Origin: Oasisia sp. SBJ-2009 | Lineage: Eukaryota; Annelida; Polychaeta; Sabellida; Siboglinidae | NCBI GenBank assembly: GCA_964017155.1 | Contig: OZ024857.1 | Span: 34,927,042-34,991,041, forward strand | Length of the DNA stretch: 64,000 nt | Reading direction: 5' to 3' | In this document: piece after piece, positions 1 to 64,000 of the stretch | Numbering within the stretch: position 1 is the stretch's first letter | Layout: each line of letters begins with the position of its first letter | Position numbers and translations under genes: made by a program | The notes under the pieces: model-generated | Database searches by the model: none | What the model saw: only the letters and a program-made list of their open reading frames with translations | What the model was told of the DNA's origin: nothing

Positions 1-13
1 TATCACCGAAACT

Positions 14-791: not shown

Positions 792-920
792 AACCTCCCA
801 ACTCCACCCAACCTCCCCACTTCACCAAACCTCCGCATTCCAACCAACCTCCGCACGCCACCCAACCTCCGCACGCGAACCAACTTCCGCACTCCACCCA
901 ACCTCCGCACTCCACCCAAC

Positions 921-1018
921 TTCCGCACTCCACCCAACTTCCGCACTCCACCCAACTTCCGCACTCCACCCAACTTCCGCACTCCACCCAACTTCCGCAC
1001 TCCACCCAACTTCCGCAC
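921..1018. repeat. Homogeneous run of CTTCCGC-type units, variable copy number
   Basis: The motif TTCCGCAC starts at 921, 939, 957, 975, 993 and 1011, an exact 18-bp ladder of six units. The paralogous run near 5283-5344 has four, that near 12112-12210 has six again, and those near 2420 and 3500 have fewer. The whole-unit steps (36 and 54 bp) between otherwise matching paralogues show local expansion and contraction. Each unit carries a CpG in CCGC. Confidence 0.85.
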
Positions 1019-16600: not shown

Positions 16601-17056
16601 ACCTCCCCACTTCACCCAACATCCCCAGAGCACCCAACCTCCCCACTCCACGCAACCTCCCCACTTCACCCAACCTCCTCACTTCACCCAACCTCCCCAC
16701 TCCAACCAACCTCCCCACTCCACCCAACCTCCCCACCCCGCCCAAACTCCCCTCTCCACCCAACCTCCCCACTTCACCCAACCTCCCCACTCCACCCTAC
16801 CTCCCCACTTCACCCAACCATCGCACTCCATCCAACCTCCGCACTCCACCCAACCTCCGCACTCCACCCAACTTCCGCACTCCACCCAACTTCCGCACTC
16901 CACCCAACCTCTGCACTCCACCCAAACTCCGCACTCCAGTCAACTTCCGCACTCCACCCAACGTCCGCACACCACCCAACTTCCGTACTCCACGCAACTT
17001 CCGCGCTCTACCCAACCTCCGCACTCCACCCAACCTCCGAACACCACCCAACTTCT
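10668..17056. repeat. 6.8-kb higher-order unit, tandem copy 2 (6389 bp)
   Basis: This copy follows copy 1 directly. The offset is 6829 at first. It becomes 6865 after two extra 18-bp units near 12150 and then 6389 after a 476-bp loss near 15313, which joins the equivalents of about 8448 and 8924. The arithmetic closes exactly: 6829 + 36 - 476 = 6389, placing the end at 17056, where the parent sequence continues past the old junction. The anchor copy is at 13506, which is 6641 + 6865. Confidence 0.87.
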
Positions 17057-19309: not shown

Positions 19310-20842
19310 ACCTCCGCACTTCATGCAACCTCCGCACTCCACCGAACTTCCGCACTCCACCCAACCTCCGCACTCCACACAACTTCCCCACTTCATACAA
19401 CCTCCCCACTCAACCCAACCTCCCCACTTCACCCAACCTCCCCACATCACCCAACCTCCCCACTCCACCCAACCTCCCCAAATTTCCCAACCTCTCCACT
19501 CAAACTCCCCACTCCACCCAACCTGCCCACTTCACCGAACCTGCCCACTCCACCCAACCTCCCCACCCCACGCAAACTCTCCACTCCACCCAACCTCCGC
19601 CCTCCACCCAACCTCCTCACTCCATCCAACCTCCCCACTCCACCAACCTCCCCACCCCGCCTAAACTCCCCTCTCCACCCAACCTCCCCACTTCACCCAA
19701 CCTCCCCACTTCACCCAACCTCCCCACTTCACCCAACCTCCTCACTCCACCCAACCTCCCCACTTCACCCAACCTCCCCACTCCACCCAACCTCCCCGAT
19801 TCACCCAACCTTCGCACTCCATCCAACCTCCGCACTCCACCCAACCTCCGCACTCCAAACAACTTCCGCACTCCACCCAACATCTGCACTCCACACATCT
19901 TCGGCACTCCACCCAACCTCCCCACTCCGCGCAACCTCCCCACTTCACCCAACCTCCCCACTTCACCCAACCTCCCCACTCCACCCAACCTCCCCACTCC
20001 ACCCAACCTCCCCACCCCGCCCAAACTCCCCTCTCCACCCAACCTCCCCACTTCACCCAAACTCCCCACTTCACTCAACCTCCCCACTTCACCCAACCTC
20101 CTCACTCCACCCAACCTCCCCATTTCACCCAACCTCCCCATTCCACCCAACCTCCCCACTTCACCCAACCTTCGCACTCCATCCAACTTCCGCACTCCAC
20201 CCAACTTCCGCACTCCACCCAACTTCCGCACTCCACCCAACCTCTGCACTCCACCCAAACTCCGCACTCCAGCCAACTTCCGCACTCCTTCCAACTTTCG
20301 CACACCACCCAACTTCCGTAATCCAAGAAACTTCCGCACTCCACCCAACCTCCGAACACCACGCAACTTCAGCACTCCACCCAACCTCCCCACTCCACCC
20401 TACCTCCCCACTTCACCCAACCATCGCACTCCATCCAACCTCCGCACTCCACCCAACCTCCGCACTCCACCCAACTTCCGCACTCCACCCAACTTCCGCA
20501 CTCCACCCAACCTCTGCACTCCACCCAAACTCCGCACTCCAGTCAACTTCCGCACTCCACCCAACGTCCGCACACCACCCAACTTCCATACTCCACGGAA
20601 CTTCCGCGCTCTACCCAACCTCCGCACTCCACCCAACCTCCGAACACCACCCAACTTCTGCACTCCACACAACCTCCCCTCTCCACCGAATCTCCCCACT
20701 CTATCCAACTTCCCAACCTCCCCACTCCTCCCAACCTACGCACTCCACCCAACCACCCCACTCCACCCAACCTCCCCACTTCAACCCATCCTCCCCACTC
20801 CACCCAACCTCCGCCCTCCACCCAACCTCCCCACTCCACCCA
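19310..20842. repeat. 1533-bp q unit, tandem copy 1
   Basis: This segment matches the next 1533 bp: 19447 to 20980, 19617 to 21150, anchor 19894 to 21427. Its anchor CACATCTTCGGCAC at 19894 is preceded by CATCTGC, the q variant. Unlike most q copies it has CTCTCCACCCAACC rather than CTCTCCGCCCAACTT near 19670, so it may be an early or converted form. Confidence 0.82.
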
Positions 20843-22375
20843 ACCTCCGCACTTCACGCAACCTCCGCACTCCACCGAACTTCCGCACTCCACCCAACCT
20901 CCGCACTCCACACAACTTCCCCACTTCATACAACCTCCCCACTCAACCCAACCTCCCCACTTCACCCAACCTCCCCACATCACCCAACCTCCCCACTCCA
21001 CCCAACCTCCCCAAGTTTCCCAACCTCTCCACTCAAACTCCCCACTCCACCCAACCTGCCCACTTCACCGAACCTGCCCACTCCACCCAACCTCCCCACC
21101 CCACGCAAACTCTCCACTCCACCCAACCTCCGCCCTCCACCCAACCTCCTCACTCCACCCAACCTCCCCACTCCACCAACCTCCCCACCCCGCCTAAACT
21201 CCCCTCTCCGCCCAACTTCCCCACTTCACCCAACCTCCCCACTTCACCCAACCTCCCCACTTCACCCAACCTCCTCACTCCACCCAACCTCCCCACTTCA
21301 CCCAACCTCCCCACTCCACCCAACCTCCCCACTTCACCCAACCTTCGCACTCCATCCAACCTCCGCACTCCACCCAACCTCCGCACTCCAAACAACTTCC
21401 GCACTCCACCCAACATCTGCACTCCACACATCTTCGGCACTCCACCCAACCTCCCCACTCCGCGCAACCTCCCCACTTCACCCAACCTCCCCACTTCACC
21501 CAACCTCCCCACTCCACCCAACCTCCCCACTCCACCCAACCTCCCCACCCCGCCCAAACTCCCCTCTCCACCCAACCTCCCCACTTCACCCAAACTCCCC
21601 ACTTCACTCAACCTCCCCACTTCACCCAACCTCCTCACTCCACCCAACCTCCCCATTTCACCCAACCTCCCCATTCCACCCAACCTCCCCACTTCACCCA
21701 ACCTTCGCACTCCATCCAACTTCCGCACTCCACCCAACTTCCGCACTCCACCCAACTTCCGCACTCCACCCAACCTCTGCACTCCACCCAAACTCCGCAC
21801 TCCAGCCAACTTCCGCACTCCTTCCAACTTTCGCACACCACCCAACTTCCGTAATCCACGAAACTTCCGCACTCCACCCAACCTCCGAACACCACGCAAC
21901 TTCAGCACTCCACCCAACCTCCCCACTCCACCCTACCTCCCCACTTCACCCAACCATCGCACTCCATCCAACCTCCGCACTCCACCCAACCTCCGCACTC
22001 CACCCAACTTCCGCACTCCACCCAACTTCCGCACTCCACCCAACCTCTGCACTCCACCCAAACTCCGCACTCCAGTCAACTTCCGCACTCCACCCAACGT
22101 CCGCACACCACCCAACTTCCGTACTCCACGCAACTTCCGCGCTCTACCCAACCTCCGCACTCCACCCAACCTCCGAACACCACCCAACTTCTGCACTCCA
22201 CACAACCTCCCCTCTCCACCGAATCTCCCCACTCTATCCAACTTCCCAACCTCCCCACTCCTCCCAACCTACGCACTCCACCCAACCACCCCACTCCACC
22301 CAACCTCCCCACTTCAACCCATCCTCCCCACTCCACCCAACCTCCGCCCTCCACCCAACCTCCCCACTCCACCCA
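20843..22375. repeat. 1533-bp q unit, tandem copy 2
   Basis: This is the second q unit, with its anchor at 21427. It carries the full q set: CATCTGC, CTCTCCGCCCAACTT near 21205, and an extra 54 bp near 21775-21830 compared with non-q units. The following copy from 22376 is non-q and leads into module X. A 1-bp loss (GAACTTCCCACTCC) near 22412 makes the next anchor spacing 1532. Confidence 0.82.
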
Positions 22376-22958
22376 ACCTCCGCACTTCACGCAACCTCCG
22401 CACTCCACCGAACTTCCCACTCCACCCAACCTCCGCACTCCACACAACTTCCCCACTTCATACAACCTCCCCACTCAACCCAACCTCCCCACTTCACCCA
22501 ACCTCCCCACATCACCCAACCTCCCCACTCCACCCAACCTCCCCAAATTTCCCAACCTCTCCACTCAAACTCCCCACTCCACCCAACCTGCCCACTTCAC
22601 CGAACCTGCCCACTCCACCCAACCTCCCCACCCCACGCAAACTCTCCACTCCACCCAACCTCCGCCCTCCACCCAACCTCCTCACTCCACCCAACCTCCC
22701 CACTCCACCAACCTCCCCACCCCGCCTAAACTCCCCTCTCCACCCAACCTCCCCACTTCACCCAACCTCCCCACTTCACCCAACCTCCCCACTTCACCCA
22801 ACCTCCTCACTCCACCCAACCTCCCCACTTCACCCAACCTCCCCACTCCACCCAACCTCCCCACTTCACCCAACCTTCGCACTCCATCCAACCTCCGCAC
22901 TCCACCCAACCTCCGCACTCCAAACAACTTCCGCACTCCACCCAACATCCGCACTCCA

Positions 22959-25900
22959 CACATCTTCGGCACTCCACCCAACCTCCCCACTCCGCGCAAC
23001 CTCCCCACTTCACCCAACCTCCCCACTTCACCCAACCTCCCCACTCCACCCAACCTCCCCACTCCACCCAACCTCCCCACCCCGCCCAAACTCCCCTCTC
23101 CACCCAACCTCCCCACTTCACCCAAACTCCCCACTTCACTCAACCTCCCCACTTCACCCAACCTCCTCACTCCACCCAACCTCCCCATTTCACCCAACCT
23201 CCCCATTCCACCCAACCTCCCCACTTCACCCAACCTTCGCACTCCATCCAACTTCCGCACTCCACCCAACTTCCGCACTCCACCCAACTTCCGCACTCCT
23301 TCCAACTTTCGCACACCACCCAACTTCCGTAATCCACGAAACTTCCGCACTCCACCCAACCTCCGAACACCACGCAACTTCAGCACTCCACCCAACCTCC
23401 CCACTCCACCGAAACTCCCCAGTCCATCCAACCTCCCAACTCCACCCAACCTCCCCACTTCAACCCATCCTCCCCACTCCACCCAACCTCCCCACTTCAC
23501 CCATCCTCCCCACTCCACCCAACCTCCCCACTCCACCCAAACTCTCCCCACTTCACCCAACCTCCGCACTCCACCCAACCTCCCCAAATCACCCAACCTC
23601 CCCACTCCACTCAAATTCCCCATTCCACCCAACTTCCGCACTCCATGCAACCTCCGCACTCCACCCAACCTCCGCACTCCACACAACTTCACCATTTCAT
23701 ACAACCTCCCCACTCAACCCAACCTCCCCACTTCACCCAACCTCCCCACTCCACCCAACCTCCCCACTCCACCCAACCTCCCCACTTCACCGAACCTCCC
23801 CACACCACCCAACCTCCCCACCCCACGCAACCTCCCCACTCCAACTAACCTCCGTCCTCCACCCAACCTCCGCCCTCCACCAAACTCCCCACTCCACCCA
23901 ACTTCCCCACTTCACCCAACCTCCCCACTCCACCCAACCTCCCCACTCCACCGAAACTCCCCAGTCCATCCAACCTCCCAACTCCACCCAACCTCCCCAC
24001 TTCAACCCATCCTCCCCACTCCACCCAACCTCCCCACTTCACCCATCCTCCCCACTCCACCCAACCTCCCCACTCCACCCAAACTCTCCCCACTTCACCC
24101 AACCTCCGCACTCCACCCAACCTCCCCAAATCACCCAACCTCCCCACTCCACTCAAATTCCCCATTCCACCCAACTTCCGCACTCCATGCAACCTCCGCA
24201 CTCCACCCAACCTCCGCACTCCACACAACTTCACCATTTCATACAACCTCCCCACTCAACCCAACCTCCCCACTTCACCCAACCTCCCCACTCCACCCAA
24301 CCTCCCCACTCCACCCAACCTCCCCACTTCACCGAACCTCCCCACACCACCCAACCTCCCCACCCCACGCAACCTCCCCACTCCAACTAACCTCCGTCCT
24401 CCACCCAACCTCCGCCCTCCACCAAACTCCCCACTCCACCCAACTTCCCCACTTCACCCAACCTCCCCACTCCACCCAACCTCCTCACTCTACCCAACCT
24501 CCCCACTCCACCCAACATCCCCAGAGCACCCAACCTCCCCACTCCACGCAACCTCCCCACTTCACCCAACCTCCCCACTTCACCAAACCTCCCCACTCCA
24601 CCCAACCTCCCCACTCCACCCAACCTCCCCACCCCGCCCAAACTCCCCTCTCCACCCAACCTCACCACTACACCCAACCTCCCCACTTCACCCAACCTCC
24701 TCACCCCACCCAATCTCCCCACTTCACCCAACCTCCCCACTTCACTCAACCTCCGCACTCCACCCAACTTACGCACTCCACCCAACCTCACCGCTTCACC
24801 CAACCTCCCCACTCCACCCAACTTCGCCACTTCACCCAACCTTCGCACTCCATCCAACCTCCGCACTCCACCCAACCTCCGCACTCCACCCAACTTCCGC
24901 ACTCCACCCAACTTCCGCACTCAACCCAACCTCCCCACTTCACCGAACCTCCCCACACCACCCAACCTCCCCACCCCACGCAACCTCCCCACTCCACCTA
25001 ACATCCGCCCTCCACCCAACCTCCGCCCTCCACCAAACCTCCCCACTCCACCCAACTTCCCCACTTCACCCAACCTCCCCACTCCACCCGACCTCCTCAC
25101 TCCACCCAACCTCCCCACTTCACCCAACATCCCCAGAGCACCCAACCTCCCCACTCCACGCAACCTCCCCACTTCACCCAACCTCCTCACTTCACCCAAC
25201 CTCCCCACTCCACCCAACCTCCCCACTCCACCCAACCTCCCCACCCCGCCCAAACTCCCCTCTCCACCCAACCTCCCCACTTCACCAAACCTCCCCACTC
25301 CACCCTACCTCCCCACTTCACCCAACCTTCGCACTCCATCCAACCTCCGCACTCCACCCAACCTCCGCACTCCACCCAACTTCCGCACTCCACCCAACTT
25401 CCGCACTCCACCCAACCTCTGCACTCCACCCAAACTCCGCACTCCAGTCAACTTCCGCACTCCACCCAACGTCCGCACACCACCCAACTTCCGTACTCCA
25501 CGCAACTTCCGCGCTCCACCCAACCTCCGCACTCCACCCAACCTCGGAACACCACCCAACTTCTGCACTCCACCCAACCTCCCCTCTCCACCGAATCTCC
25601 CCACTCTATCCAACTTCCCAACCTCCCTACTCCTCCCAACCTACGCATTCCACCCAACCACCCCACTCCACCCAACCTCCCCACTTCAACCCATCCCCCC
25701 CACTCCACCCAACCTCCGCCCTCCACCCAACTTCCGCACTCCACCCAACTTCCGCACTTCATGCAACCTCCGCACTCCACCCAACCTCCGCACTCCACAC
25801 AACTTCCCCACTTCATACAACCTCCCCACTCAACCCAACCTCCCCACTCCACCCAACCTCCCCACTTCACCAAACCTCCCCACTCCACCCTACCTCCCCA

Positions 25901-27906
25901 CTTCACCCAACCTTCGCACTCCATCCAACCTCCGCACTCCACCCAACCTCCGCACTCCACCCAACTTCCGCACTCCACCCAACTTCCGCACTCCACCCAA
26001 CCTCTGCACTCCACCCAAACTCCGCACTCCAGTCAACTTCCGCACTCCACCCAACGTCCGCACACCACCCAACTTCCGTACTCCACGCAACTTCTGCGCT
26101 CCACCCAACCTCCGCACTCCACCCAACCTCCGAACACCACCCAACTTCTGCACTCCACCCAACCTCCCCTCTCCACCGAATCTCCCCACTCTATCCAACT
26201 TCCCAACCTCCCCACTCCTCCCAACCTACGCATTCCACCCAACCACCCCACTCCACCCAACCTCCCCACTTCAACCCATCCTCCCCACTCCACCCAACCT
26301 CCGCCCTCCACCCAACCTCCCCACTCCACCCAACCTCCGCACTTCATGCAACCTCCGCACTCCACCGAACTTCCGCACTCCACCCAACTTCCGCACTCCA
26401 TGCAACCTCCGCACTCCACCCAACCTCTGAACTCCACACAACTTCCCCACGTCATACAACCTCCCCACTCAACCCAACCTCCCCACTTCACCCAACCTCC
26501 CCACTTCACCCAACCTCCCCACATCACCCAAACTCCCCACTCTCCCCACTTCACCCAACCTCCCCACTCCACCGTACCTCCCCACTTCACCCAACCTTCG
26601 CACTCCATCCAACCTCCGCACTCCACCCAACCTCCGCACTCCACCCAACTTCCGCACTCCACCCAACTTCCGCACTCCACCCAACCTCCCCACTTCACCG
26701 AACCTCCCCACACCACCCAACGTCCCCACTCCACGCAACCTCCCCACTCCACCTAACCTCCGCCCTCCACCCAACCTCCGCCCTCCACCAAACCTCCCCA
26801 CTCCACCCAACTTCCCCACTTCACCCAACCTCCCCACTCCACCCAACCTCCTCACTCCACCCAACCTCCCCACTTCACCCAACTTCCCCAGAGCACCCAA
26901 CCTCCCCACTCCACGCAACCTCCCCACTTCACCCAACCTCCTCACTTCACCCAACCTCCCCACTCCAACCAACCTCCCCACTCCACCCAACCTCCCCACC
27001 CCGCCCAAACTGCCCTCTCCACCCAACCTCCCCACTTCACCCAACCTCCCCACTCCACCCTACCTCCCCACTTCACCCAACCATCGCACTCCATCCAACC
27101 TCCGCACTCCACCCAACCTCCGCACTCCACCCAACTTCCGCACTCCACCCAACTTCCGCACTCCACCCAACCTCTGCACTCCACCCAAATTCCGCACTCC
27201 AGTCAACTTCCGCACTCCACCCAACGTCCGCACACCACCCAACTTCCGTACTCCACGCAACTTCCGCGCTCTACCCAACCTCCGCACTCCACCCAACCTC
27301 CGAACACCACCCAACTTCTGCACTCCACACAACCTCCCCTCTCCACCGAATCTCCCCACTCTATCCAACTTCCCAACCTCCCCACTCCTCCCAACCTCCG
27401 CCCTCCACCCAACCTCCCCACTCCACCCAACCTCCGCACTTCACGCAACCTCCGCACTCCACCGAACTTCCGCACTCCACCCAACCTCCGCACTCCACAC
27501 AACTTCCCCACTTCATACAACCTCCCCACTCAACCCAACCTCCCCACTTCACCCAACCTCCCCACATCACCCAACCTCCCCACTCCACCCAACCTCCCCA
27601 AATTTCCCAACCTCTCCACTCAAACTCCCCACTCCACCCAACCTGCCCACTTCACCGAACCTGCCCACTCCACCCAACCTCCCCACCCCACGCAAACTCT
27701 CCACTCCACCCAACCTCCCCACTTCACCCAACCTCCCCACTTCACCCAACCTCCTCACTCCACCCAACCTCCCCACTTCACCCAACCTCCCCACTCCACC
27801 CAACCTCCCCACTTCACCCAACCTTCGCACTCCATCCAACCTCCGCACTCCACCCAACCTCCGCACTCCAAACAACTTCCGCACTCCACCCAACATCCGC
27901 ACTCCA
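22959..27906. repeat. Module X with embedded 542-bp duplication (4948 bp)
   Basis: This module runs from the non-q anchor at 22959 to the next at 27907. It matches 49172-53613, for example 24387 to 50058, 25305 to 50976 and 26033 to 51740. It is 506 bp longer than that copy, which equals one 542-bp duplication minus a 36-bp deletion. The deletion lies near 25850 in the region that in other copies holds a longer plus-strand open frame. Confidence 0.8.
23384..24467. repeat. 542-bp tandem duplication inside module X
   Basis: 23384-23925 and 23926-24467 match at an offset of 542; GAAACTCCCCAGTCC recurs and CCGAAACTCC starts at 23409 and 23951. Edges are a G/C mismatch at 23383/23925 and a C/T mismatch at 23943/24485. 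No other X module in the window has it, so it is a private and probably recent event. Confidence 0.88.
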
Positions 27907-30233
27907 CACATCTTCGGCACTCCACCCAACCTCCCCACTCCGCGCAACCTCCCCACTTCACCCAACCTCCCCACTTCACCCAACCTCCCCACTCCACCCA
28001 ACCTCCCCACTCCACCCAACCTCCCCACCCCGCCCAAACTCCCCTCTCCACCCAACCTCCCCACTTCACCCAAACTCCCCACTTCACTCAACCTCCCCAC
28101 TTCACCCAACCTCCTCACTCCACCCAACCTCCCCATTTCACCCAACCTCCCCATTCCACCCAACCTCCCCACTTCACCCAACCTTCGCACTCCATCCAAC
28201 TTCCGCACTCCACCCAACTTCCGCACTCCACCCAACTTCCGCACTCCTTCCAACTTTCGCACACCACCCAACTTCCGTAATCCACGAAACTTCCGCACTC
28301 TACCCAACCTCCGAACACCACGCAACTTCAGCACTCCACCCAACCTCCACACTCCACCGAAACTCCCCAGTCCATCCAACCTCCCAACTCCACCCAACCT
28401 CCCCACTTCAACCCATCCTCCCCACTCCACCCAACCTCCCCACTTCACCCATCCTCCCCACTCCACCCAACCTCCCCACTCCACCCAAACTCTCCCCACT
28501 TCACCCAACCTCCGCACTCCACCCAACCTCCCCAAATCACCCAACCTCCCCACTCCACTCAAATTCCCCATTCCACCCAACTTCCGCACTCCATGCAACC
28601 TCCGCACTCCACACAACTTCCCCATTTCATAAAACCTCCCCACTCAACCCAACCTCCCCACTTCACCCAACCTCCCCACTCCACCCAACCTCCCCACTCC
28701 ACCCAACCTCCCCAATTCACCGAACCTCCCCACACCACCCAACCTCCCCACCCCACGCAACCTCCCCACTCCAACTAACCTTCGTCCTCCACCCAACCTC
28801 CGCCCTCCACCAAACCTCCCCACTCCACCCAACTTCCCCACTTCACCCAACATCCCCACTCCACCCAACCTCCTCACTCTACCCAACCTCCCCACTCCAC
28901 CCAACATCCCCAGAGCACCCAACCTCCCCACCCCGCCAAAACTCCCCTCTCCACCCAACCTCACCACTACACCCAACCTCCCCACTTCACCCAACCTCCT
29001 CACCCCACCCAATCTCCCCACTTCACCCAACCTCCCCACTTCACTCAACCTCCGCACTCCACCCAACTTAAGCACTCCACCCAACCTCACCGCTTCACCC
29101 AACCTCCCCACTCCACCCAACTTCGCCACTTCACCCAAACTCCCCACTCCACCCAACCTCCTCACTCCACCCAACCTCCCCACTTCACCAAACCTCCCCA
29201 CTCCACCCAACCTCCCCACTCCACCCAACCTCCCCACCCCGCCCAAACTCCCCTCTCCACCCAACCTCACCACTACACCCAACCTCCCCACTTCACCCAA
29301 CCTCCTCACCCCACCCAATCTCCCCACTTCACCCAACCTCCCCACTTCACTCAACCTCCGCACTCCACCCAACTTAAGCACTCCACCCAACCTCACCGCT
29401 TCACCCAACCTCCCCACTCCACCCAACTTCGCCACTTCACCCAAACTCCCCACTCCACCCAACCTCCTCACTCCACCCAACCTCCCCACTTCACCCAACC
29501 TCCCCACTCCACCCTACCTCCCCACTTCACCCAACCTACCCACATCACCCAAACTCCCCACTCTCCCCACTTCACCCAACCTCCCCACTCCACCCTACCT
29601 CCCCACTTCACCCAACCTTCGCACTCCATCCAACCTCCGCACTCCACCCAACCTCCGCACTCCACCCAACTTCCGCACTCCACCCAACTTCCGCACTCAA
29701 CCCAACCTCCGCACTCCACACAACTTCCCCACTTCATACAACCTCCCCACTCAACCCAACCTCCCCACTTCACCCAACCTCCCCACATCACCCAACCTCC
29801 CCACTCCACCCAACCTCCCCAAGTTTCCCAACCTCTCCACTCAAACTCCCCACTCCACCCAACCTGCCCACTTCACCGAACCTGCCCACTCCACCCAACC
29901 TCCCCACCCCACGCAAACTCTCCACTCCACCCAACCTCCGCCCTCCACCCAACCTCCTCACTCCACCCAACCTCCCCACTCCACCAACCTCCCCACCCCG
30001 CCTAAACTCCCCTCTCCGCCCAACTTCCCCACTTCACCCAACCTCCCCACTTCACCCAACCTCCCCACTCACCCAACCTCCTCACTCCACCCAACCTCCC
30101 CACTTCACCCAACCTCCCCACTCCACCCAACCTCCCCACTTCACCCAACCTTCGCACTCCATCCAACCTCCGCACTCCACCCAACCTCCGCACTCCAAAC
30201 AACTTCCGCACTCCACCCAACATCTGCACTCCA
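27907..30233. repeat. Module Y (2327 bp)
   Basis: This Y copy lies between a non-q anchor at 27907 and a q anchor at 30234. It matches 53614-55959 with a net loss of 19 bp: one 18-bp unit near 28600 plus one base near 30069, where CCCCACTCACCC replaces CCCCACTTCACCC. It contains the paired TTAAGC motifs at 29068 and 29374 that mark all complete Y modules. Confidence 0.8.
28915..29494. repeat. 306-bp internal duplication typical of module Y
   Basis: TTAAGC at 29068 and 29374, and CCCCACCCCGCC near 28927 and 29233, repeat at an offset of 306, exactly 17 units. The right edge is a CACCAAACC against CACCCAACC difference near 29188/29494. The same pair occurs in later Y modules, for example 32981/33287. 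It therefore predates the spread of the module. Confidence 0.78.
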
Positions 30234-52100: not shown

Positions 52101-53613
52101 CACTCCATGCAACCTCCGCACTCCACCCAACCTCTGAACTCCACACAACTTCCCCACGTCATACAACCTCCCCACTCAACCCAACCTCCCCACTTCACCC
52201 AACCTCCCCACTTCACCCAACCTCCCCACATCACCCAAACTCCCCACTCTCCCCACTTCACCCAACCTCCCCACTCCACCCTACCTCCCCACTTCACCCA
52301 ACCTTCGCACTCCATCCAACCTCCGCACTCCACCCAACCTCCGCACTCCACCCAACTTCCGCACTCCACCCAACTTCCGCACTCCACCCAACCTCCCCAC
52401 TTCACCGAACCTCCCCACACCACCCAACGTCCCCACTCCACGCAACCTCCCCACTCCACCTAACCTCCGCCCTCCACCCAACCTCCGCCCTCCACCAAAC
52501 CTCCCCACTCCACCCAACTTCCCCACTTCACCCAACCTCCCCACTCCACCCAACCTCCTCACTCCACCCAACCTCCCCACTTCACCCAACTTCCCCAGAG
52601 CACCCAACCTCCCCACTCCACGCAACCTCCCCACTTCACCCAACCTCCTCACTTCACCCAACCTCCCCACTCCAACCAACCTCCCCACTCCACCCAACCT
52701 CCCCACCCCGCCCAAACTGCCCTCTCCACCCAACCTCCCCACTTCACCCAACCTCCCCACTCCACCCTACCTCCCCACTTCACCCAACCATCGCACTCCA
52801 TCCAACCTCCGCACTCCACCCAACCTCCGCACTCCACCCAACTTCCGCACTCCACCCAACTTCCGCACTCCACCCAACCTCTGCACTCCACCCAAATTCC
52901 GCACTCCAGTCAACTTCCGCACTCCACCCAACGTCCGCACACCACCCAACTTCCGTACTCCACGCAACTTCCGCGCTCTACCCAACCTCCGCACTCCACC
53001 CAACCTCCGAACACCACCCAACTTCTGCACTCCACACAACCTCCCCTCTCCACCGAATCTCCCCACTCTATCCAACTTCCCAACCTCCCCACTCCTCCCA
53101 ACCTCCGCCCTCCACCCAACCTCCCCACTCCACCCAACCTCCGCACTTCACGCAACCTCCGCACTCCACCGAACTTCCGCACTCCACCCAACCTCCGCAC
53201 TCCACACAACTTCCCCACTTCATACAACCTCCCCACTCAACCCAACCTCCCCACTTCACCCAACCTCCCCACATCACCCAACCTCCCCACTCCACCCAAC
53301 CTCCCCAAATTTCCCAACCTCTCCACTCAAACTCCCCACTCCACCCAACCTGCCCACTTCACCGAACCTGCCCACTCCACCCAACCTCCCCACCCCACGC
53401 AAACTCTCCACTCCACCCAACCTCCCCACTTCACCCAACCTCCCCACTTCACCCAACCTCCTCACTCCACCCAACCTCCCCACTTCACCCAACCTCCCCA
53501 CTCCACCCAACCTCCCCACTTCACCCAACCTTCGCACTCCATCCAACCTCCGCACTCCACCCAACCTCCGCACTCCAAACAACTTCCGCACTCCACCCAA
53601 CATCCGCACTCCA
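49172..53613. repeat. Module X, full length (4442 bp)
   Basis: It matches 57492-61932 at an offset of 8320. It holds, in order, a Y-like start, the GAAACTCCCCAGTCC variant near 49625, GACCTCCTCAC near 50760, and a plus-strand HSTQPP-type open frame at 51432-52463. It lacks the 542-bp duplication of the first X. Confidence 0.84.
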
Positions 53614-55959
53614 CACATCTTCGGCACTCCACCCAACCTCCCCACTCCGCGCAACCTCCCCACTTCACCCAACCTCCCCACTTCACCCAACCTCCCCACT
53701 CCACCCAACCTCCCCACTCCACCCAACCTCCCCACCCCGCCCAAACTCCCCTCTCCACCCAACCTCCCCACTTCACCCAAACTCCCCACTTCACTCAACC
53801 TCCCCACTTCACCCAACCTCCTCACTCCACCCAACCTCCCCATTTCACCCAACCTCCCCATTCCACCCAACCTCCCCACTTCACCCAACCTTCGCACTCC
53901 ATCCAACTTCCGCACTCCACCCAACTTCCGCACTCCACCCAACTTCCGCACTCCTTCCAACTTTCGCACACCACCCAACTTCCGTAATCCACGAAACTTC
54001 CGCACTCCACCCAACCTCCGAACACCACGCAACTTCAGCACTCCACCCAACCTCCACACTCCACCGAAACTCCCCAGTCCATCCAACCTCCCAACTCCAC
54101 CCAACCTCCCCACTTCAACCCATCCTCCCCACTCCACCCAACCTCCCCACTTCACCCATCCTCCCCACTCCACCCAACCTCCCCACTCCACCCAAACTCT
54201 CCCCACTTCACCCAACCTCCGCACTCCACCCAACCTCCCCAAATCACCCAACCTCCCCACTCCACTCAAATTCCCCATTCCACCCAACTTCCGCACTCCA
54301 TGCAACCTCCGCACTCCACCCAACCTCCGCACTCCACACAACTTCCCCATTTCATAAAACCTCCCCACTCAACCCAACCTCCCCACTTCACCCAACCTCC
54401 CCACTCCACCCAACCTCCCCACTCCACCCAACCTCCCCAATTCACCGAACCTCCCCACACCACCCAACCTCCCCACCCCACGCAACCTCCCCACTCCAAC
54501 TAACCTTCGTCCTCCACCCAACCTCCGCCCTCCACCAAACCTCCCCACTCCACCCAACTTCCCCACTTCACCCAACATCCCCACTCCACCCAACCTCCTC
54601 ACTCTACCCAACCTCCCCACTCCACCCAACATCCCCAGAGCACCCAACCTCCCCACCCCGCCCAAACTCCCCTCTCCACCCAACCTCACCACTACACCCA
54701 ACCTCCCCACTTCACCCAACCTCCTCACCCCACCCAATCTCCCCACTTCACCCAACCTCCCCACTTCACTCAACCTCCGCACTCCACCCAACTTAAGCAC
54801 TCCACCCAACCTCACCGCTTCACCCAACCTCCCCACTCCACCCAACTTCGCCACTTCACCCAAACTCCCCACTCCACCCAACCTCCTCACTCCACCCAAC
54901 CTCCCCACTTCACCAAACCTCCCCACTCCACCCAACCTCCCCACTCCACCCAACCTCCCCACCCCGCCCAAACTCCCCTCTCCACCCAACCTCACCACTA
55001 CACCCAACCTCCCCACTTCACCCAACCTCCTCACCCCACCCAATCTCCCCACTTCACCCAACCTCCCCACTTCACTCAACCTCCGCACTCCACCCAACTT
55101 AAGCACTCCACCCAACCTCACCGCTTCACCGAACCTCCCCACTCCACCCAACTTCGCCACTTCACCCAAACTCCCCACTCCACCCAACCTCCTCACTCCA
55201 CCCAACCTCCCCACTTCACCCAACCTCCCCACTCCACCCTACCTCCCCACTTCACCCAACCTACCCACATCACCCAAACTCCCCACTCTCCCCACTTCAC
55301 CCAACCTCCCCACTCCAACCTACCTCCCCACTTCACCCAACCTTCGCACTCCATCCAACCTCCGCACTCCACCCAACCTCCGCACTCCACCCAACTTCCG
55401 CACTCCACCCAACTTCCGCACTCAACCCAACCTCCGCACTCCACACAACTTCCCCACTTCATACAACCTCCCCACTCAACCCAACCTCCCCACTTCACCC
55501 AACCTCCCCACATCACCCAACCTCCCCACTCCACCCAACCTCCCCAAGTTTCCCAACCTCTCCACTCAAACTCCCCACTCCACCCAACCTGCCCACTTCA
55601 CCGAACCTGCCCACTCCACCCAACCTCCCCACCCCACGCAAACTCTCCACTCCACCCAACCTCCGCCCTCCACCCAACCTCCTCACTCCACCCAACCTCC
55701 CCACTCCACCAACCTCCCCACCCCGCCTAAACTCCCCTCTCCGCCCAACTTCCCCACTTCACCCAACCTCCCCACTTCACCCAACCTCCCCACTTCACCC
55801 AACCTCCTCACTCCACCCAACCTCCCCACTTCACCCAACCTCCCCACTCCACCCAACCTCCCCACTTCACCCAACCTTCGCACTCCATCCAACCTCCGCA
55901 CTCCACCCAACCTCCGCACTCCAAACAACTTCCGCACTCCACCCAACATCTGCACTCCA
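53614..55959. repeat. Module Y (2346 bp)
   Basis: It has the TTAAGC pair and CCAATTCACCGAACC near 54437. It is two units shorter than the Y modules at 31766 and 45258 and matches 27907-30233 closely. Confidence 0.83.
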
Positions 55960-57491
55960 CACATCTTCGGCACTCCACCCAACCTCCCCACTCCGCGCAA
56001 CCTCCCCACTTCACCCAACCTCCCCACTTCACCCAACCTCCCCACTCCACCCAACCTCCCCACTCCACCCAACCTCCCCACCCCGCCCAAACTCCCCTCT
56101 CCACCCAACCTCCCCACTTCACCCAAACTCCCCACTTCACTCAACCTCCCCACTTCACCCAACCTCCTCACTCCACCCAACCTCCCCATTTCACCCAACC
56201 TCCCCATTCCACCCAACCTCCCCACTTCACCCAACCTTCGCACTCCATCCAACTTCCGCACTCCACCCAACTTCCGCACTCCACCCAACTTCCGCACTCC
56301 ACCCAACCTCTGCACTCCACCCAAACTCCGCACTCCAGCCAACTTCCGCACTCCTTCCAACTTTCGCACACCACCCAACTTCCGTAATCCACGAAACTTC
56401 CGCACTCCACCCAACCTCCGAACACCACGCAACTTCAGCACTCCACCCAACCTCCCCACTCCACCCTACCTCCCCACTTCACCCAACCATCGCACTCCAT
56501 CCAACCTCCGCACTCCACCCAACCTCCGCACTCCACCCAACTTCCGCACTCCACCCAACTTCCGCACTCCACCCAACCTCTGCACTCCACCCAAACTCCG
56601 CACTCCAGTCAACTTCCGCACTCCACCCAACGTCCGCACACCACCCAACTTCCGTACTCCACGCAACTTCCGCGCTCTACCCAACCTCCGCACTCCACCC
56701 AACCTCCGAACACCACCCAACTTCTGCACTCCACACAACCTCCCCTCTCCACCGAATCTCCCCACTCTATCCAACTTCCCAACCTCCCCACTCCTCCCAA
56801 CCTACGCACTCCACCCAACCACCCCACTCCACCCAACCTCCCCACTTCAACCCATCCTCCCCACTCCACCCAACCTCCGCCCTCCACCCAACCTCCCCAC
56901 TCCACCCAACCTCCGCACTTCACGCAACCTCCGCACTCCACCGAACTTCCCACTCCACCCAACCTCCGCACTCCACACAACTTCCCCACTTCATACAACC
57001 TCCCCACTCAACCCAACCTCCCCACTTCACCCAACCTCCCCACATCACCCAACCTCCCCACTCCACCCAACCTCCCCAAATTTCCCAACCTCTCCACTCA
57101 AACTCCCCACTCCACCCAACCTGCCCACTTCACCGAACCTGCCCACTCCACCCAACCTCCCCACCCCACGCAAACTCTCCACTCCACCCAACCTCCGCCC
57201 TCCACCCAACCTCCTCACTCCACCCAACCTCCCCACTCCACCAACCTCCCCACCCCGCCTAAACTCCCCTCTCCACCCAACCTCCCCACTTCACCCAACC
57301 TCCCCACTTCACCCAACCTCCCCACTTCACCCAACCTCCTCACTCCACCCAACCTCCCCACTTCACCCAACCTCCCCACTCCACCCAACCTCCCCACTTC
57401 ACCCAACCTTCGCACTCCATCCAACCTCCGCACTCCACCCAACCTCCGCACTCCAAACAACTTCCGCACTCCACCCAACATCCGCACTCCA
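55960..57491. repeat. Module q lacking the TTCACAACC variant (1532 bp)
   Basis: It has all three linked q markers but reads AACTTCCCAACC near 56775, unlike the q units from 30 to 49 kb. It therefore groups with the q units near 19.9-22.4 kb at this site. Confidence 0.8.
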
Positions 57492-60400
57492 CACATCTTC
57501 GGCACTCCACCCAACCTCCCCACTCCGCGCAACCTCCCCACTTCACCCAACCTCCCCACTTCACCCAACCTCCCCACTCCACCCAACCTCCCCACTCCAC
57601 CCAACCTCCCCACCCCGCCCAAACTCCCCTCTCCACCCAACCTCCCCACTTCACCCAAACTCCCCACTTCACTCAACCTCCCCACTTCACCCAACCTCCT
57701 CACTCCACCCAACCTCCCCATTTCACCCAACCTCCCCATTCCACCCAACCTCCCCACTTCACCCAACCTTCGCACTCCATCCAACTTCCGCACTCCACCC
57801 AACTTCCGCACTCCACCCAACTTCCGCACTCCTTCCAACTTTCGCACACCACCCAACTTCCGTAATCCACGAAACTTCCGCACTCCACCCAACCTCCGAA
57901 CACCACGCAACTTCAGCACTCCACCCAACCTCCCCACTCCACCGAAACTCCCCAGTCCATCCAACCTCCCAACTCCACCCAACCTCCCCACTTCAACCCA
58001 TCCTCCCCACTCCACCCAACCTCCCCACTTCACCCATCCTCCCCACTCCACCCAACCTCCCCACTCCACCCAAACTCTCCCCACTTCACCCAACCTCCGC
58101 ACTCCACCCAACCTCCCCAAATCACCCAACCTCCCCACTCCACTCAAATTCCCCATTCCACCCAACTTCCGCACTCCATGCAACCTCCGCACTCCACCCA
58201 ACCTCCGCACTCCACACAACTTCCCCATTTCATACAACCTCCCCACTCAACCCAACCTCCCCACTTCACCCAACCTCCCCACTCCACCCAACCTCCCCAC
58301 TCCACCCAACCTCCCCACTTCACCGAACCTCCCCACACCACCCAACCTCCCCACCCCACGCAACCTCCCCACTCCAACTAACCTCCGTCCTCCACCCAAC
58401 CTCCGCCCTCCACCAAACTCCCCACTCCACCCAACTTCCCCACTTCACCCAACCTCCCCACTCCACCCAACCTCCTCACTCTACCCAACCTCCCCACTCC
58501 ACCCAACATCCCCAGAGCACCCAACCTCCCCACTCCACGCAACCTCCCCACTTCACCCAACCTCCCCACTTCACCAAACCTCCCCACTCCACCCAACCTC
58601 CCCACTCCACCCAACCTCCCCACCCCGCCCAAACTCCCCTCTCCACCCAACCTCACCACTACACCCAAACTCCCCACTTCACCCAACCTCCTCACCCCAC
58701 CCAATCTCCCCACTTCACCCAACCTCCCCACTTCACTCAACCTCCGCACTCCACCCAACTTACGCACTCCACCCAACCTCACCGCTTCACCCAACCTCCC
58801 CACTCCACCCAACTTCGCCACTTCACCCAACCTTCGCACTCCATCCAACCTCCGCACTCCACCCAACCTCCGCACTCCACCCAACTTCCGCACTCCACCC
58901 AACTTCCGCACTCAACCCAACCTCCCCACTTCACCGAACCTCCCCACACCACCCAACCTCCCCACCCCACGCAACCTCCCCACTCCACCTAACATCCGCC
59001 CTCCACCCAACCTCCGCCCTCCACCAAACCTCCCCACTCCACCCAACTTCCCCACTTCACCCAACCTCCCCACTCCACCCGACCTCCTCACTCCACCCAA
59101 CCTCCCCACTTCACCCAACATCCCCAGAGCACCCAACCTCCCCACTCCACGCAACCTCCCCACTTCACCCAACCTCCTCACTTCACCCAACCTCCCCACT
59201 CCACCCAACCTCCCCACTCCACCCAACCTCCCCACCCCGCCCAAACTCCCCTCTCCACCCAACCTCCCCACTTCACCAAACCTCCCCACTCCACCCTACC
59301 TCCCCACTTCACCCAACCTTCGCACTCCATCCAACCTCCGCACTCCACCCAACCTCCGCACTCCACCCAACTTCCGCACTCCACCCAACTTCCGCACTCC
59401 ACCCAACCTCTGCACTCCACCCAAACTCCGCACTCCAGTCAACTTCCGCACTCCACCCAACGTCCGCACACCACCCAACTTCCGTACTCCACGCAACTTC
59501 CGCGCTCCACCCAACCTCCGCACTCCACCCAACCTCGGAACACCACCCAACTTCTGCACTCCACCCAACCTCCCCTCTCCACCGAATCTCCCCACTCTAT
59601 CCAACTTCCCAACCTCCCTACTCCTCCCAACCTACGCATTCCACCCAACCACCCCACTCCACCCAACCTCCCCACTTCAACCCATCCCCCCACTCCACCC
59701 AACCTCCGCCCTCCACCCAACTTCCGCACTCCACCCAACTTCCGCACTTCATGCAACCTCCGCACTCCACCCAACCTCCGCACTCCACACAACTTCCCCA
59801 CTTCATACAACCTCCCCACTCAACCCAACCTCCCCACTTCACCCAACCTCCCCACATCACCCAACCTTCCCACTCCACCCAACCTCCCCACTTCACCAAA
59901 CCTCCCCACTCCACCCTACCTCCCCACTTCACCCAACCTTCGCACTCCATCCAACCTCCGCACTCCACCCAACCTCCGCACTCCACCCAACTTCCGCACT
60001 CCACCCAACTTCCGCACTCCACCCAACCTCTGCACTCCACCCAAACTCCGCACTCCAGTCAACTTCCCCACTGCACCCAACGTCCGCACACCACCCAACT
60101 TCCGTACTCCACGCAACTTCTGCGCTCCACCCAACCTCCGCACTCCACCCAACCTCCGAACACCACCCAACTTCTGCACTCCACCCAACCTCCCCTCTCC
60201 ACCGAATCTCCCCACTCTATCCAACTTCCCAACCTCCCCACTCCTCCCAACCTACGCATTCCACCCAACCACCCCACTCCACCCAACCTCCCCACTTCAA
60301 CCCATCCTCCCCACTCCACCCAACCTCCGCCCTCCACCCAACCTCCCCACTCCACCCAACCTCCGCACTTCATGCAACCTCCGCACTCCACCGAACTTCC

Positions 60401-61932
60401 GCACTCCACCCAACTTCCGCACTCCATGCAACCTCCGCACTCCACCCAACCTCTGAACTCCACACAACTTCCCAACGTCATACAACCTCCCCACTCAACC
60501 CAACCTCCCCACTTCACCCAACCTCCCCACTTCACCCAACCTCCCCACATCACCCAAACTCCCCACTCTCCCCACTTCACCCAACCTCCCCACTCCACCC
60601 TACCTCCCCACTTCACCCAACCTTCGCACTCCATCCAACCTCCGCACTCCACCCAACCTCCGCACTCCACCCAACTTCCGCACTCCACCCAACTTCCGCA
60701 CTCCACCCAACCTCCCCACTTCACCGAACCTCCCCACACCACCCAACGTCCCCACTCCACGCAACCTCCCCACTCCACCTAACCTCCGCCCTCCACCCAA
60801 CCTCCGCCCTCCACCAAACCTCCCCACTCCACCCAACTTCCCCACTTCACCCAACCTCCCCACTCCACCCAACCTCCTCACTCCACCCAACCTCCCCACT
60901 TCACCCAACTTCCCCAGAGCACCCAACCTCCCCACTCCACGCAACCTCCCCACTTCACCCAACCTCCTCACTTCACCCAACCTCCCCACTCCAACCAACC
61001 TCCCCACTCCACCCAACCTCCCCACCCCGCCCAAACTGCCCTCTCCACCCAACCTCCCCACTTCACCCAACCTCCCCACTCCACCCTACCTCCCCACTTC
61101 ACCCAACCATCGCACTCCATCCAACCTCCGCACTCCACCCAACCTCCGCACTCCACCCAACTTCCGCACTCCACCCAACTTCCGCACTCCACCCAACCTC
61201 TGCACTCCACCCAAATTCCGCACTCCAGTCAACTTCCGCACTCCACCCAACGTCCGCACACCACCCAACTTCCGTACTCCACGCAACTTCCGCGCTCTAC
61301 CCAACCTCCGCACTCCACCCAACCTCCGAACACCACCCAACTTCTGCACTCCACACAACCTCCCCTCTCCACCGAATCTCCCCACTCTATCCAACTTCCC
61401 AACCTCCCCACTCCTCCCAACCTCCGCCCTCCACCCAACCTCCCCACTCCACCCAACCTCCGCACTTCACGCAACCTCCGCACTCCACCGAACTTCCGCA
61501 CTCCACCCAACCTCCGCACTCCACACAACTTCCCCACTTCATACAACCTCCCCACTCAACCCAACCTCCCCACTTCACCCAACCTCCCCACATCACCCAA
61601 CCTCCCCACTCCACCCAACCTCCCCAAATTTCCCAACCTCTCCACTCAAACTCCCCACTCCACCCAACCTGCCCACTTCACCGAACCTGCCCACTCCACC
61701 CAACCTCCCCACCCCACGCAAACTCTCCACTCCACCCAACCTCCCCACTTCACCCAACCTCCCCACTTCACCCAACCTCCTCACTCCACCCAACCTCCCC
61801 ACTTCACCCAACCTCCCCACTCCACCCAACCTCCCCACTTCACCCAACCTTCGCACTCCATCCAACCTCCGCACTCCACCCAACCTCCGCACTCCAAACA
61901 ACTTCCGCACTCCACCCAACATCCGCACTCCA
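57492..61932. repeat. Module X, full length (4441 bp)
   Basis: This is the second regular X of the 8.32-kb HOR. It is one base shorter than its partner at 49172, because CATCCCCCC is shortened to CATCCCCC near 59686. Another difference is CCCAACGTCAT near 60472 where the partner has CCCCACGTCAT. The plus-strand open frame is at 59751-60782. Confidence 0.84.
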
Positions 61933-64000
61933 CACATCTTCGGCACTCCACCCAACCTCCCCACTCCGCGCAACCTCCCCACTTCACCCAACCTCCCCAC
62001 TTCACCCAACCTCCCCACTCCACCCAACCTCCCCACTCCACCCAACCTCCCCACCCCGCCCAAACTCCCCTCTCCACCCAACCTCCCCACTTCACCCAAA
62101 CTCCCCACTTCACTCAACCTCCCCACTTCACCCAACCTCCTCACTCCACCCAACCTCCCCATTTCACCCAACCTCCCCATTCCACCCAACCTCCCCACTT
62201 CACCCAACCTTCGCACTCCATCCAACTTCCGCACTCCACCCAACTTCCGCACTCCACCCAACTTCCGCACTCCTTCCAACTTTCGCACACCACCCAACTT
62301 CCGTAATCCACGAAACTTCCGCACTCCACCCAACCTCCGAACACCACGCAACTTCAGCACTCCACCCAACCTCCACACTCCACCGAAACTCCCCAGTCCA
62401 TCCAACCTCCCAACTCCACCCAACCTCCCCACTTCAACCCATCCTCCCCACTCCACCCAACCTCCCCACTTCACCCATCCTCCCCACTCCACCCAACCTC
62501 CCCACTCCACCCAAACTCTCCCCACTTCACCCAACCTCCGCACTCCACCCAACCTCCCCAAATCACCCAACCTCCCCACTCCACTCAAATTCCCCATTCC
62601 ACCCAACTTCCGCACTCCATGCAACCTCCGCACTCCACCCAACCTCCGCACTCCACACAACTTCCCCATTTCATAAAACCTCCCCACTCAACCCAACCTC
62701 CCCACTTCACCCAACCTCCCCACTCCACCCAACCTCCCCACTCCACCCAACCTCCCCAATTCACCGAACCTCCCCACACCACCCAACCTCCCCACCCCAC
62801 GCAACCTCCCCACTCCAACTAACCTTCGTCCTCCACCCAACCTCCGCCCTCCACCAAACCTCCCCACTCCACCCAACTTCCCCACTTCACCCAACATCGC
62901 CACTCCACCCAACCTCCTCACTCTACCCAACCTCCCCACTCCACCCAACATCCCCAGAGCACCCAACCTCCCCACCCCGCCCAAACTCCCCTCTCCACCC
63001 AACCTCACCACTACACCCAACCTCCCCACTTCACCCAACCTCCTCACCCCACCCAATCTCCCCACTTCACCCAACCTCCCCACTTCACTCAACCTCCGCA
63101 CTCCACCCAACTTAAGCACTCCACCCAACCTCACCGCTTCACCCAACCTCCCCACTCCACCCAACTTCGCCACTTCACCCAAACTCCCCACTCCACCCAA
63201 CCTCCTCACTCCACCCAACCTCCCCACTTCACCAAACCTCCCCACTCCACCCAACCTCCCCACTCCACCCAACCTCCCCACCCCGCCCAAACTCCCCTCT
63301 CCACCCAACCTCACCACTACACCCAACCTCCCCACTTCACCCAACCTCCTCACCCCACCCAATCTCCCCACTTCACCCAACCTCCCCACTTCACTCAACC
63401 TCCGCCCTCCACCCAACTTAAGCACTCCACCCAACCTCACCGCTTCACCCAACCTCCCCACTCCACCCAACTTCGCCACTTCACCCAAACTCCCCACTCC
63501 ACCCAACCTCCTCACTCCACCCAACCTCCCCACTTCACCCAACCTCCCCACTCCACCCTACCTCCCCACTTCACCCAACCTACCCACATCACCCAAACTC
63601 CCCACTCTCCCCACTTCACCCAACCTCCCCACTCCACCCTACCTCCCCACTTCACCCAACCTTCGCACTCCATCCAACCTCCGCACTCCACCCAACCTCC
63701 GCACTCCACCCAACTTCCGCACTCCACCCAACTTCCGCACTCAACCCAACCTCCCCACTTCACCGAACCTCCCCACACCACCCAACCTCCCCACTTCACC
63801 CAACCTCCTCACTTCACCCAACCTCCCCACTCCACCCAACCTCCCCACTCCACCCAACCTCCCCACCCCGCCCAAACTCCCCTCTCCACCCAACCTCCCC
63901 ACTTCACCAAACCTCCCCACTCCACCCTACCTCCCCACTTCACCCAACCTTCGCACTCCATCCAACCTCCGCACTCCACCCAACCTCCGCACTCCACCCA
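61933..64000. repeat. Module Y, incomplete and switching to X-like sequence at its end
   Basis: It follows the other Y modules to about 63745. There, instead of the CTCCGCACTCCACACAAC seen in them, it reads CTCCCCACTTCACCGAACC as in module X near 58920. It then skips roughly 200 bp to continue like 59165 onward. No q anchor is reached before the window ends. Confidence 0.75.

Follow-up and report, generated by a model that had tools for sequence, protein, structure and literature searches.

An 18-bp satellite array in Oasisia sp., probably one 8,320-bp higher-order repeat altered by tandem duplications and deletions

Does the seemingly irregular block order of a satellite array record the shuffling of kilobase-sized modules, or does it derive from a regular array by simpler changes? 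The question is raised by a 64,000-nucleotide stretch of contig OZ024857.1 from Oasisia sp. SBJ-2009, referred to here as the window, in which an earlier note had described blocks named q, X and Y, set off by a recurring anchor CACATCTTCGGCAC, and had proposed that the satellite evolves by shuffling of kb-sized modules and not only by 18-bp slippage. The large changes are real, the visible changes in the U domain (Table 1) comprising six distinct junctions of at least 216 bp and two slips of 18 and 36 bp; the shuffling is unsupported. Positions 20878–63759 are very probably a single array of an 8,320-bp higher-order repeat (HOR) of the 18-bp satellite, altered by a few tandem duplications and deletions.

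Table 1. Features of the window, with positions counted from its first base; U and V denote the two reference HOR units.
Feature	Position	Description
18-bp satellite array, consensus CTCCCCACTCCACCCAAC	21–64000	~3,580 monomers, single orientation throughout
More rearranged V-type sequence	1–5265 and 15311–17009	
V domain, related 6,865-bp HOR	5266–15310	Reference copy 6641–13505 inside; ~1.5 units
Transition zone	17010–20877	Mixed V- and U-type pieces, each 0–1.5% from its reference (threading)
U domain, rearranged 8,320-bp HOR array	20878–63759	8 distinct junctions >5 bp, two seen twice, plus an older one at 20878
Reference HOR unit U	47640–55959	q (1532) + X (4442) + Y (2346), ~465 monomers
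CACATCTTCGGCAC anchors	19894q, 21427q, 22959, 27907, 30234q, 31766, 34148q, 36348, 38670q, 40202	Listed positions confirmed
CACATCTTCGGCAC anchors, continued	41404, 43726q, 45258, 47640q, 49172, 53614, 55960q, 57492, 61933	Listed positions confirmed
Private 542-bp tandem duplication, second copy	23926–24467	In first X; jump U 2498 to 1957; single 542-bp gap in X-X alignments
'Y 2382', an X/Y fusion	31766–34147	First 794 bp of X + Y from U 6732; 4,406-bp deletion; junction 32560
Enlarged q, net +668 bp	34148–36347	Read as 884-bp duplication + 216-bp deletion; junctions 35018, 35300
X'	36348–38669	First 2,013 bp of X + end of Y; 4,465-bp deletion; junction 38361
X', identical copy	41404–43725	Junction 43417
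Exact ~5,056-bp tandem duplication	35741–45852	Seam 40797; 0 mismatches over 5,068 bp
Further junction at window edge	63760–64000	U ~7800 to ~3169 (threading)

TRF finds a period of 18 in the window, with 3,554.9 copies and 83% matches, and an HMM parse gives 3,582 monomers of 203 distinct sequences, 3,418 of them exactly 18 bp long. GC skew is strongly negative in all 32 2-kb bins (−0.865 to −0.925). Within the unit the monomers are diverged, bases 18 apart agreeing at 83%, and copies of the same module are 99.3–100% identical. Head-to-tail 18-bp monomers over 64 kb, their divergence, the near-identity of the units and the repetition of whole units mark the locus as a satellite with HORs. No Rfam family reaches its gathering score in the window; an exact 36-base monomer pattern has 0 matches in a viral contig collection, and a degenerate 22-base pattern has 0 in viral contigs and 0 in genome contigs. 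A search of the open-access literature for 18-bp satellites, and for 15-base fragments taken from either strand of the monomer, found no description of this satellite. Stop-free plus-strand frames of up to 2,534 codons (15125–22729) might suggest a coding minisatellite that encodes a long repeat protein, but such frames overlap in all three plus-strand frames, as is expected of a C-rich strand, there are zero closed ORFs of at least 500 codons starting with ATG, GTG or TTG, and the 200-residue translation of one plus-strand frame (48943–49542) matches no protein at E ≤ 0.001 among 2,894 candidates. On the evidence of ORFs, frame overlap and protein search we reject a coding function, which we regard as next to impossible.

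The 19 anchor positions and spacings of the earlier note are exact. Two further copies of CACATCTTCGGCAC lie upstream of these, at 6641 and 13506 (21 in total), and the minus strand of the window carries none; the base nine before the anchor is T in 8/8 'q' anchors and C in the other 13 of the 21. The block order likewise holds, reading q q X Y q Y q X' q (joint) X' q Y q X Y q X Y, in which the final Y is truncated by the window end and owes its identity to threading. When the modules are compared by pairwise distances and global alignments, anchor spacing is accompanied in each class by collinear homology, with identities of 99.28–100% for q (n = 8), 99.86–99.89% for X (n = 3) and 99.79–99.87% for Y (n = 4), and with 0 mismatches between the X' copies (n = 2). 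Length differences within classes are confined to a few clean indels of 668, 542, 36, 18 and 1 bp. The spacings do take few values, 10 distinct ones in the 17 intervals from 21427 on. Such a small set is what is expected of any rearranged HOR: among 500 simulated arrays, in each of which nine duplications/deletions matching the observed sizes were placed at random, the median was 8 distinct spacings in 15 intervals, with 98% of arrays showing at most 10 and 10% at least 10.

A single 8,320-bp HOR, q-X-Y, contains a ~541-bp core three times, and the blocks q, X and Y are the stretches from one core copy to the next. Long matches join 46052–51371 to 54372–59691 (10 mismatches) and 51367–55435 to 59686–63754 (8 mismatches), and within the unit X and Y have 1,127 bp in common at 5 mismatches. 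Threading of 19299–63759 on U takes 15 jumps, 11 of them larger than 5 bp, the same at four jump costs; the segment 46052–63759, which includes the reference copy, makes slightly over two passes through U without a jump larger than 5 bp. With H1 (21427–30233) as the reference, 22–23 jumps are needed, 16–18 of them larger than 5 bp, because whatever changed in H1 itself is then counted against the other copies.

True module shuffling, with q, X and Y as cassettes exchanged at their ends, the anchors, is consistent with the few spacing classes, each internally 99.3–100% identical. We nevertheless consider it very improbable. Breakpoints lie no nearer to anchors than random points do (median 635 bp against 693 bp, p = 0.54, from the 18 ends of nine junctions); they ignore the anchors, and therefore the modules are not the units of exchange. 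The successor of X is invariably Y, and that of both Y and X' is invariably q, a rule obeyed by 18 of 400,000 random orders of the 19 blocks. Each 8,320-bp unit has 375 distinct 14-mers in three copies, and the anchor is just one of these, which makes the phase at which modules are delimited arbitrary. As regards the marks of a cassette system, we find no exchange at module boundaries and no free order of modules, the cyclic order q-X-Y being kept. We caution that anchor-spacing 'grammars' in satellites may not mean exchangeable modules.

The departures from a single HOR can instead be followed one by one. Deletions that fused X to Y account for both X' and the 2382-bp 'Y'. The junction of the latter is seen again at 46052, in the copy 45258–47639; this fusion exceeds the Y of 53614 by 36 bp, its two copies show 7 mismatches over 5,110 bp, and each of the two fused units has the same one-base deletion immediately before the following q. 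The Y class of the earlier note (2327, 2346 and 2382 bp) is internally collinear but mixes true Y with X/Y fusions. The 1,202-bp 'joint' at 40202–41403 is the seam region of the ~5.06-kb duplication, composed of an X/Y-fusion head and a q tail, and removal of the 5,056-bp copy brings back the continuity of the unit, from U 2126 to 2127.

The 44,461 bp of 19299–63759 can be regenerated from a regular array by ten tandem duplications and deletions, leaving 79 substitutions and 4 one-base indels; this length includes the 8,320-bp reference itself, and the 79 substitutions amount to 0.22% of the other 36,141 bp. These two kinds of event are enough to explain the entire block order, and reordering is unnecessary. 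From a starting array qXY qXY qXY ..., a 4,406-bp deletion would have fused X to Y, probably once, with subsequent copying, the short fused unit being duplicated together with its neighbouring full unit in HOR register (12,234 bp). One q would have undergone an 884-bp duplication and a 216-bp deletion, X' would have arisen by a 4,465-bp deletion, and the ~5.06-kb tandem duplication would be recent; there would also have been a 542-bp duplication and two slips, one of 36 bp and one of 18 bp. The order of events is our reconstruction and is not unique. The predicted lag between the two fused units is 3914 + 8320 − 4466 + 668 = 8436, or 13492 after the 5,056-bp duplication, and both lags are among the strong lags of the window, so that the arithmetic closes. 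The array is a case of ordinary, well-resolved and very readable satellite evolution, and it keeps a legible record of about ten events that turned a regular HOR into a seemingly irregular one.

Satellite arrays are difficult to assemble, and misjoined reads could account for the exact 5,056-bp duplication or for certain of the short units. The mismatch-free 5,068-bp match is unusual beside the other copies. Pooled, 31 other long matches give a rate at which 7.3 mismatches would be expected (Poisson P0 = 7 × 10−4); those 31 overlap mutually and had been chosen for high identity. An artefact of this kind is nonetheless improbable, as the 18-bp register is kept at the junctions, whereas misjoins would be expected to land in HOR register, and two copies separated by the 7 mismatches noted above carry the same fusion junction.

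The left part of the window is organised around the related V unit. Outside the V reference copy, 3,180 bases of 5266–15310 thread on it with 2 mismatches, and 5242–8449 matches 12107–15314 with 3. The junction at 20878, which forms the q-q pair, is also present in both V copies, with 0 mismatches over 260 bp; both carry it, so it is older, and a reading of the q-q pair as a private 1,533-bp duplication was dropped. Threading of the left part gives 18 jumps, from which four (two one-base shifts and two repeated junctions) were set aside to leave 14.

The 18-bp phase is kept at 22/22 distinct junctions larger than 1 bp (8 in the U domain and 14 in the left part), against a chance of 1/18 for each. 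Because a change in exact HOR register leaves no junction, the junctions that can be seen over-represent events outside that register. Homology was compared with phase-matched nulls, in which random position pairs were held in 18-bp register; 31% of 20,000 such pairs reach 12 bp, with a median of 8 bp. The eight distinct U-domain junctions, two of which are ordinary slips, have exact homologies of 12–17 bp, above the random pairs (p = 0.0009). For the six larger junctions alone p = 0.004, and with the 14 left-part junctions added to the eight the median is 16.5 bp (p = 2 × 10−5). The 20878 junction, with 7 bp of exact homology, was excluded from the final test, yet kept in the ten-event list; with it included, the U-domain p is 0.002. 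Homologies in the left part are uneven, ranging from 2 to 186 bp, with 4 of 14 at most 5 bp and 4 of 14 at least 60 bp, and some of the long ones may represent V/U reference changes and perhaps not junctions.

Over longer distances the junctions are mostly unremarkable. In gapped alignments of ±150 bp, five of the six larger U-domain junctions are indistinct from random in-register pairs (null fraction, the share of such pairs with equal or greater similarity, 0.08–0.84), and an involvement of shared core blocks in all exchanges is not borne out for these five. The junction at 40797 is borderline (87.1%, null fraction 0.077), and the X/Y fusion junction stands out, at 98.9% identity. Long-homology unequal crossing-over (NAHR) between paralogous blocks within the unit, as the source of the kb-scale changes, is possible but rather unlikely. 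The fusion junction does fall inside the 1,127-bp block shared by X and Y, two monomers off register, the local similarity at 20878 exceeds that of about 99% of random pairs, and four left-part junctions have their 60 bp or more of exact homology. However, the 20878 junction is the older one common to both V copies, and NAHR fits one of the six larger U-domain junctions, the other five being those unremarkable within ±150 bp.

In the route that we favour, sister strands would pair in 18-bp register at one near-identical monomer (12–17 bp exact), and exchange or template switching between strands so paired, as in single-strand annealing or fork restart, is on balance probable. That exchanges guided by a single 18-bp monomer (again 12–17 bp exact), occurring anywhere in the 8.3-kb unit, are the main driver of kb-scale turnover is a more tentative suggestion, about which we are doubtful. 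If true, HORs would continually break out of register, with lengths of 8320, 6865, 5056, 4522 and 3914 arising side by side, and turnover would contrast with the integer-HOR changes reported for human alpha satellite. Base-level junctions such as these can be used to weigh long-homology crossing-over against short-homology strand switching as the way in which satellites change.

Parallels to the organisation of this array exist in human satellites. DYZ1 is reportedly a male-specific 3.6-kb repeat unit on Yq, said in the title of Nakahori et al. 1986 to be a 'tandem array of pentanucleotides'. Sections of PMC4022460 describe human satellite 3 (DYZ1) and the 1.77-kb unit of HSat2 as very short base repeats in kb-long higher-order units; the present array is likened to them by this organisation, and differs in having an 18-bp C-rich monomer and an 8,320-bp unit of ~465 monomers. 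For human alpha-satellite HOR arrays, PMC12240836 gives, for a pedigree, de novo changes of 680–12,228 bp, all of them integer changes of HOR cassettes. Nearly identical HOR copies and kb-scale gains and losses are common to both systems, whereas the visible junctions here are in 18-bp and not HOR register, HOR-register events being invisible in our data. Growth and contraction through tandem duplication and deletion are shared with the unequal-crossover model for the evolution of satellites (Smith 1976, cited in PMC4022460 and PMC8822648), and the array does not differ in principle from the model as cited there; at most of the larger U-domain junctions, exact homology is limited to about one monomer.

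A further change of position in U occurs at the right edge of the window, where the best ungapped matches of 63761–64000 elsewhere in the window carry 3 mismatches in 240.

The window spans two higher-order repeat (HOR) domains of one satellite. All of it is a single array of period 18, with consensus CTCCCCACTCCACCCAAC and neighbouring monomers matching at 83%; it parses into 3,582 monomers, comprising 203 distinct sequences, of which 3,418 monomers are exactly 18 bases long. The same strand is rich in C over the whole window (37,185 C versus 2,101 G), with a GC skew of -0.865 to -0.925 in all 32 of the 2-kb bins. CpG is over-represented across the window (observed/expected 1.42), and G is scarce except at monomer position 5, where it follows C in 36% of monomers. 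The composition of the G-rich strand makes it prone to form quadruplexes (mean G4Hunter-type score 1.40), which, speculatively, could favour breaks. Plus-strand frames free of stops run to 2,534 codons and overlap one another (15125-22729 (+) and others), a consequence of the make-up of the C-rich strand. The window contains no closed ORF with a start codon and at least 500 codons, and an Rfam scan of it gave no family at gathering score; searches for relatives, with monomer patterns against viral and genome contig sets and a 200-residue translation of one plus-strand frame against 2,894 candidate proteins (E 0.001 or better), gave no match.

The right-hand domain is built on a unit, U, defined by the match of 46052-51371 to 54372-59691 (lag 8,320, 10 mismatches) and of 51367-55435 to 59686-63754 (lag 8,319, 8 mismatches). 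In U, 20 monomers depart from the standard length (8, 9, 13, 17, 19 or 20 bp); they are presumably old changes out of register that were amplified along with the unit. Positions 1-20877, ahead of the rearranged U array, hold the related HOR, V, and a mixed transition zone; 1-1583 equals 11192-12774 with no mismatch. Outside its reference copy, the V domain comprises 3,180 bases with 2 differences from that reference. Some parts of V and U differ by 0-2% (e.g. U 2858-3805 and 3752-5412), others by more, 4-9%.

HOR domains and composite blocks of the array
Feature	Position	Description	Read on
V domain	5266-15310	unit 6,865 bp, reference 6641-13505	
Transition zone	~17,010 to 20,877	alternating V- and U-type pieces	
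Unit U	47640-55959	q + X + Y	
'2382-bp Y'	31766 and 45258	initial 794 bp of X fused to Y	U
X'		initial 2,013 bp of X fused to Y end	U
2,200-bp q		884-bp duplication with 216-bp deletion, one possible reading	U
1,202-bp interval	40202-41403	seam of ~5,056-bp tandem duplication	U

The earlier note had divided the array into blocks (q, X, Y and X') by the spacing of a short anchor sequence. This description holds: its 19 anchors and their spacings are exact. The anchor sequence also occurs at 6641 and 13506, and a T stands nine bases upstream of 8/8 q anchors and 0/13 others. Blocks of one class are collinear, with identities of 99.28-100% for q, 99.86-99.89% for X, 99.79-99.87% for Y and 100% for X', and length differences within classes are few and clean. 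A core reaching from -200 to +341 about the anchor is present three times inside U, so that q, X and Y are the three intervals between copies of this one core. X and Y have 1,127 bp in common (5 mismatches), q and Y 541 bp (1 mismatch), and q and X two blocks, one of 526 bp (3 mismatches) and a perfect one of 341 bp. U contains 375 distinct 14-mers in triplicate, the anchor being one of these, and a different choice would therefore yield different 'modules'.

An optimal path for 19299-63759 through circular U requires 15 jumps, of which 11 exceed 5 bp, and 79 mismatches, with jump places unchanged at jump costs of 6, 10, 20 and 30. Taking 21427-30233 as the reference instead raises this to 22-23 jumps (16-18 of them above 5 bp), because the private duplication and deletions of that copy are charged to the others. 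A regular U array and ten events reproduce the 44,461 real bases save 79 substitutions and four one-base indels. The events would be deletions of 4406, 216, 4465, 36 and 18 bp and duplications of 12234, 884, 5057, 1533 and 542 bp. Leaving out the 8,320 bases of the reference U itself, the substitution rate is 79 in 36,141, or 0.22%; 18 of the 79 fall in 19299-20877. Three of the four indels share one unit position, upstream of q in units that are fused or duplicated; they probably represent a single deletion later copied. The 12,234-bp duplication, in HOR register and without a junction, is suggested by a shared fusion and a shared one-base deletion. Both V copies carry the junction of the 1,533-bp step with no mismatch over 260 bp, so this step is either older than the rest or not private. 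The ~5,056-bp tandem duplication is exact across 5,068 bp in the assembled sequence, compared with 7.3 differences predicted (P0 = 7e-4) at a rate pooled from 31 other long matches, which overlap one another and were picked for high identity. A further junction lies at the extreme window end (63755-64000), and the last 206 bases (63795-64000) fall outside every high-identity match of at least 250 bp within the window.

Block order had been taken as a grammar produced by module shuffling, a view that the data do not bear out. X is followed by Y, and Y and X' by q, without exception, a cyclic order obeyed by only 18 of 400,000 random permutations of these 19 blocks. Breakpoints (18 ends from nine junctions) lie no nearer to anchors than random points do (median 635 bp versus 693 bp, p = 0.54). 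Few spacing classes also arise in arrays simulated with nine random duplications or deletions each (median 8 distinct in 15 intervals). From 21427 on we observe 10 distinct spacings in 17 intervals; 10 or fewer occurred in 98% of 500 simulations and 10 or more in 10%.

The 18-bp phase is kept at all distinct junctions larger than 1 bp, 8/8 in the U domain and 14/14 in the left part. Exact homology at the former is 17, 16, 17, 16, 17, 12, 17 and 12 bp, compared with a median of 8 bp for random in-register pairs, 31% of which reach 12 (p = 0.0009; p = 0.004 for the six larger junctions, excluding two slips). Left-part junctions vary more (5, 18, 61, 13, 15, 79, 4, 61, 2, 27, 186, 4, 10 and 21 bp), with a median of 16.5 (p = 0.003 on their own, p = 2e-5 combined with the U domain). 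Long homology at some of them would suit unequal crossing-over (NAHR) between paralogous blocks as the source of the kb-scale changes; several of the longest are V/U reference changes and may not be junctions. When +/-150 bp around each junction is aligned with gaps, five of the six larger ones of the U domain are indistinct from random in-register pairs, that at 40797 being borderline (0.077); the X/Y fusion junction stands out at 98.9%, as, trivially, do the two slips. We consider NAHR an unlikely explanation of these changes. Our inference is instead that strands paired in the 18-bp register at a single near-identical monomer before switching, a route like that of single-strand annealing or fork restart, and that at least one event arose by long-homology crossing-over.

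The array is a satellite of a known kind. Excerpts of PMC4022460 describe kb-long units built from very short repeats, the 3.6-kb HSat3 unit (DYZ1) and the 1.77-kb HSat2 unit, and those of PMC7767330 and PMC8822648 give an overview of satellite mechanisms (unequal crossing-over, tandem duplication, slippage). According to excerpts of PMC12240836, human alpha-satellite HOR arrays changed de novo always by integer numbers of HOR cassettes (680-12,228 bp), DYZ2 changed by whole units, and no recombination crossover coincided with any of 27 de novo structural variants in euchromatin. Visible junctions in the Oasisia array, in contrast to these alpha-satellite events, are out of HOR register, a contrast that is not a measured rate difference because in-register events are traceless here. 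Among the HOR copies (19299-63759), 43 unit positions vary, by 27 transversions (A/C 15, C/G 12) and 16 transitions (C/T 11, A/G 5); this odd excess of transversions might reflect the spread of existing monomer variants and not new mutations.
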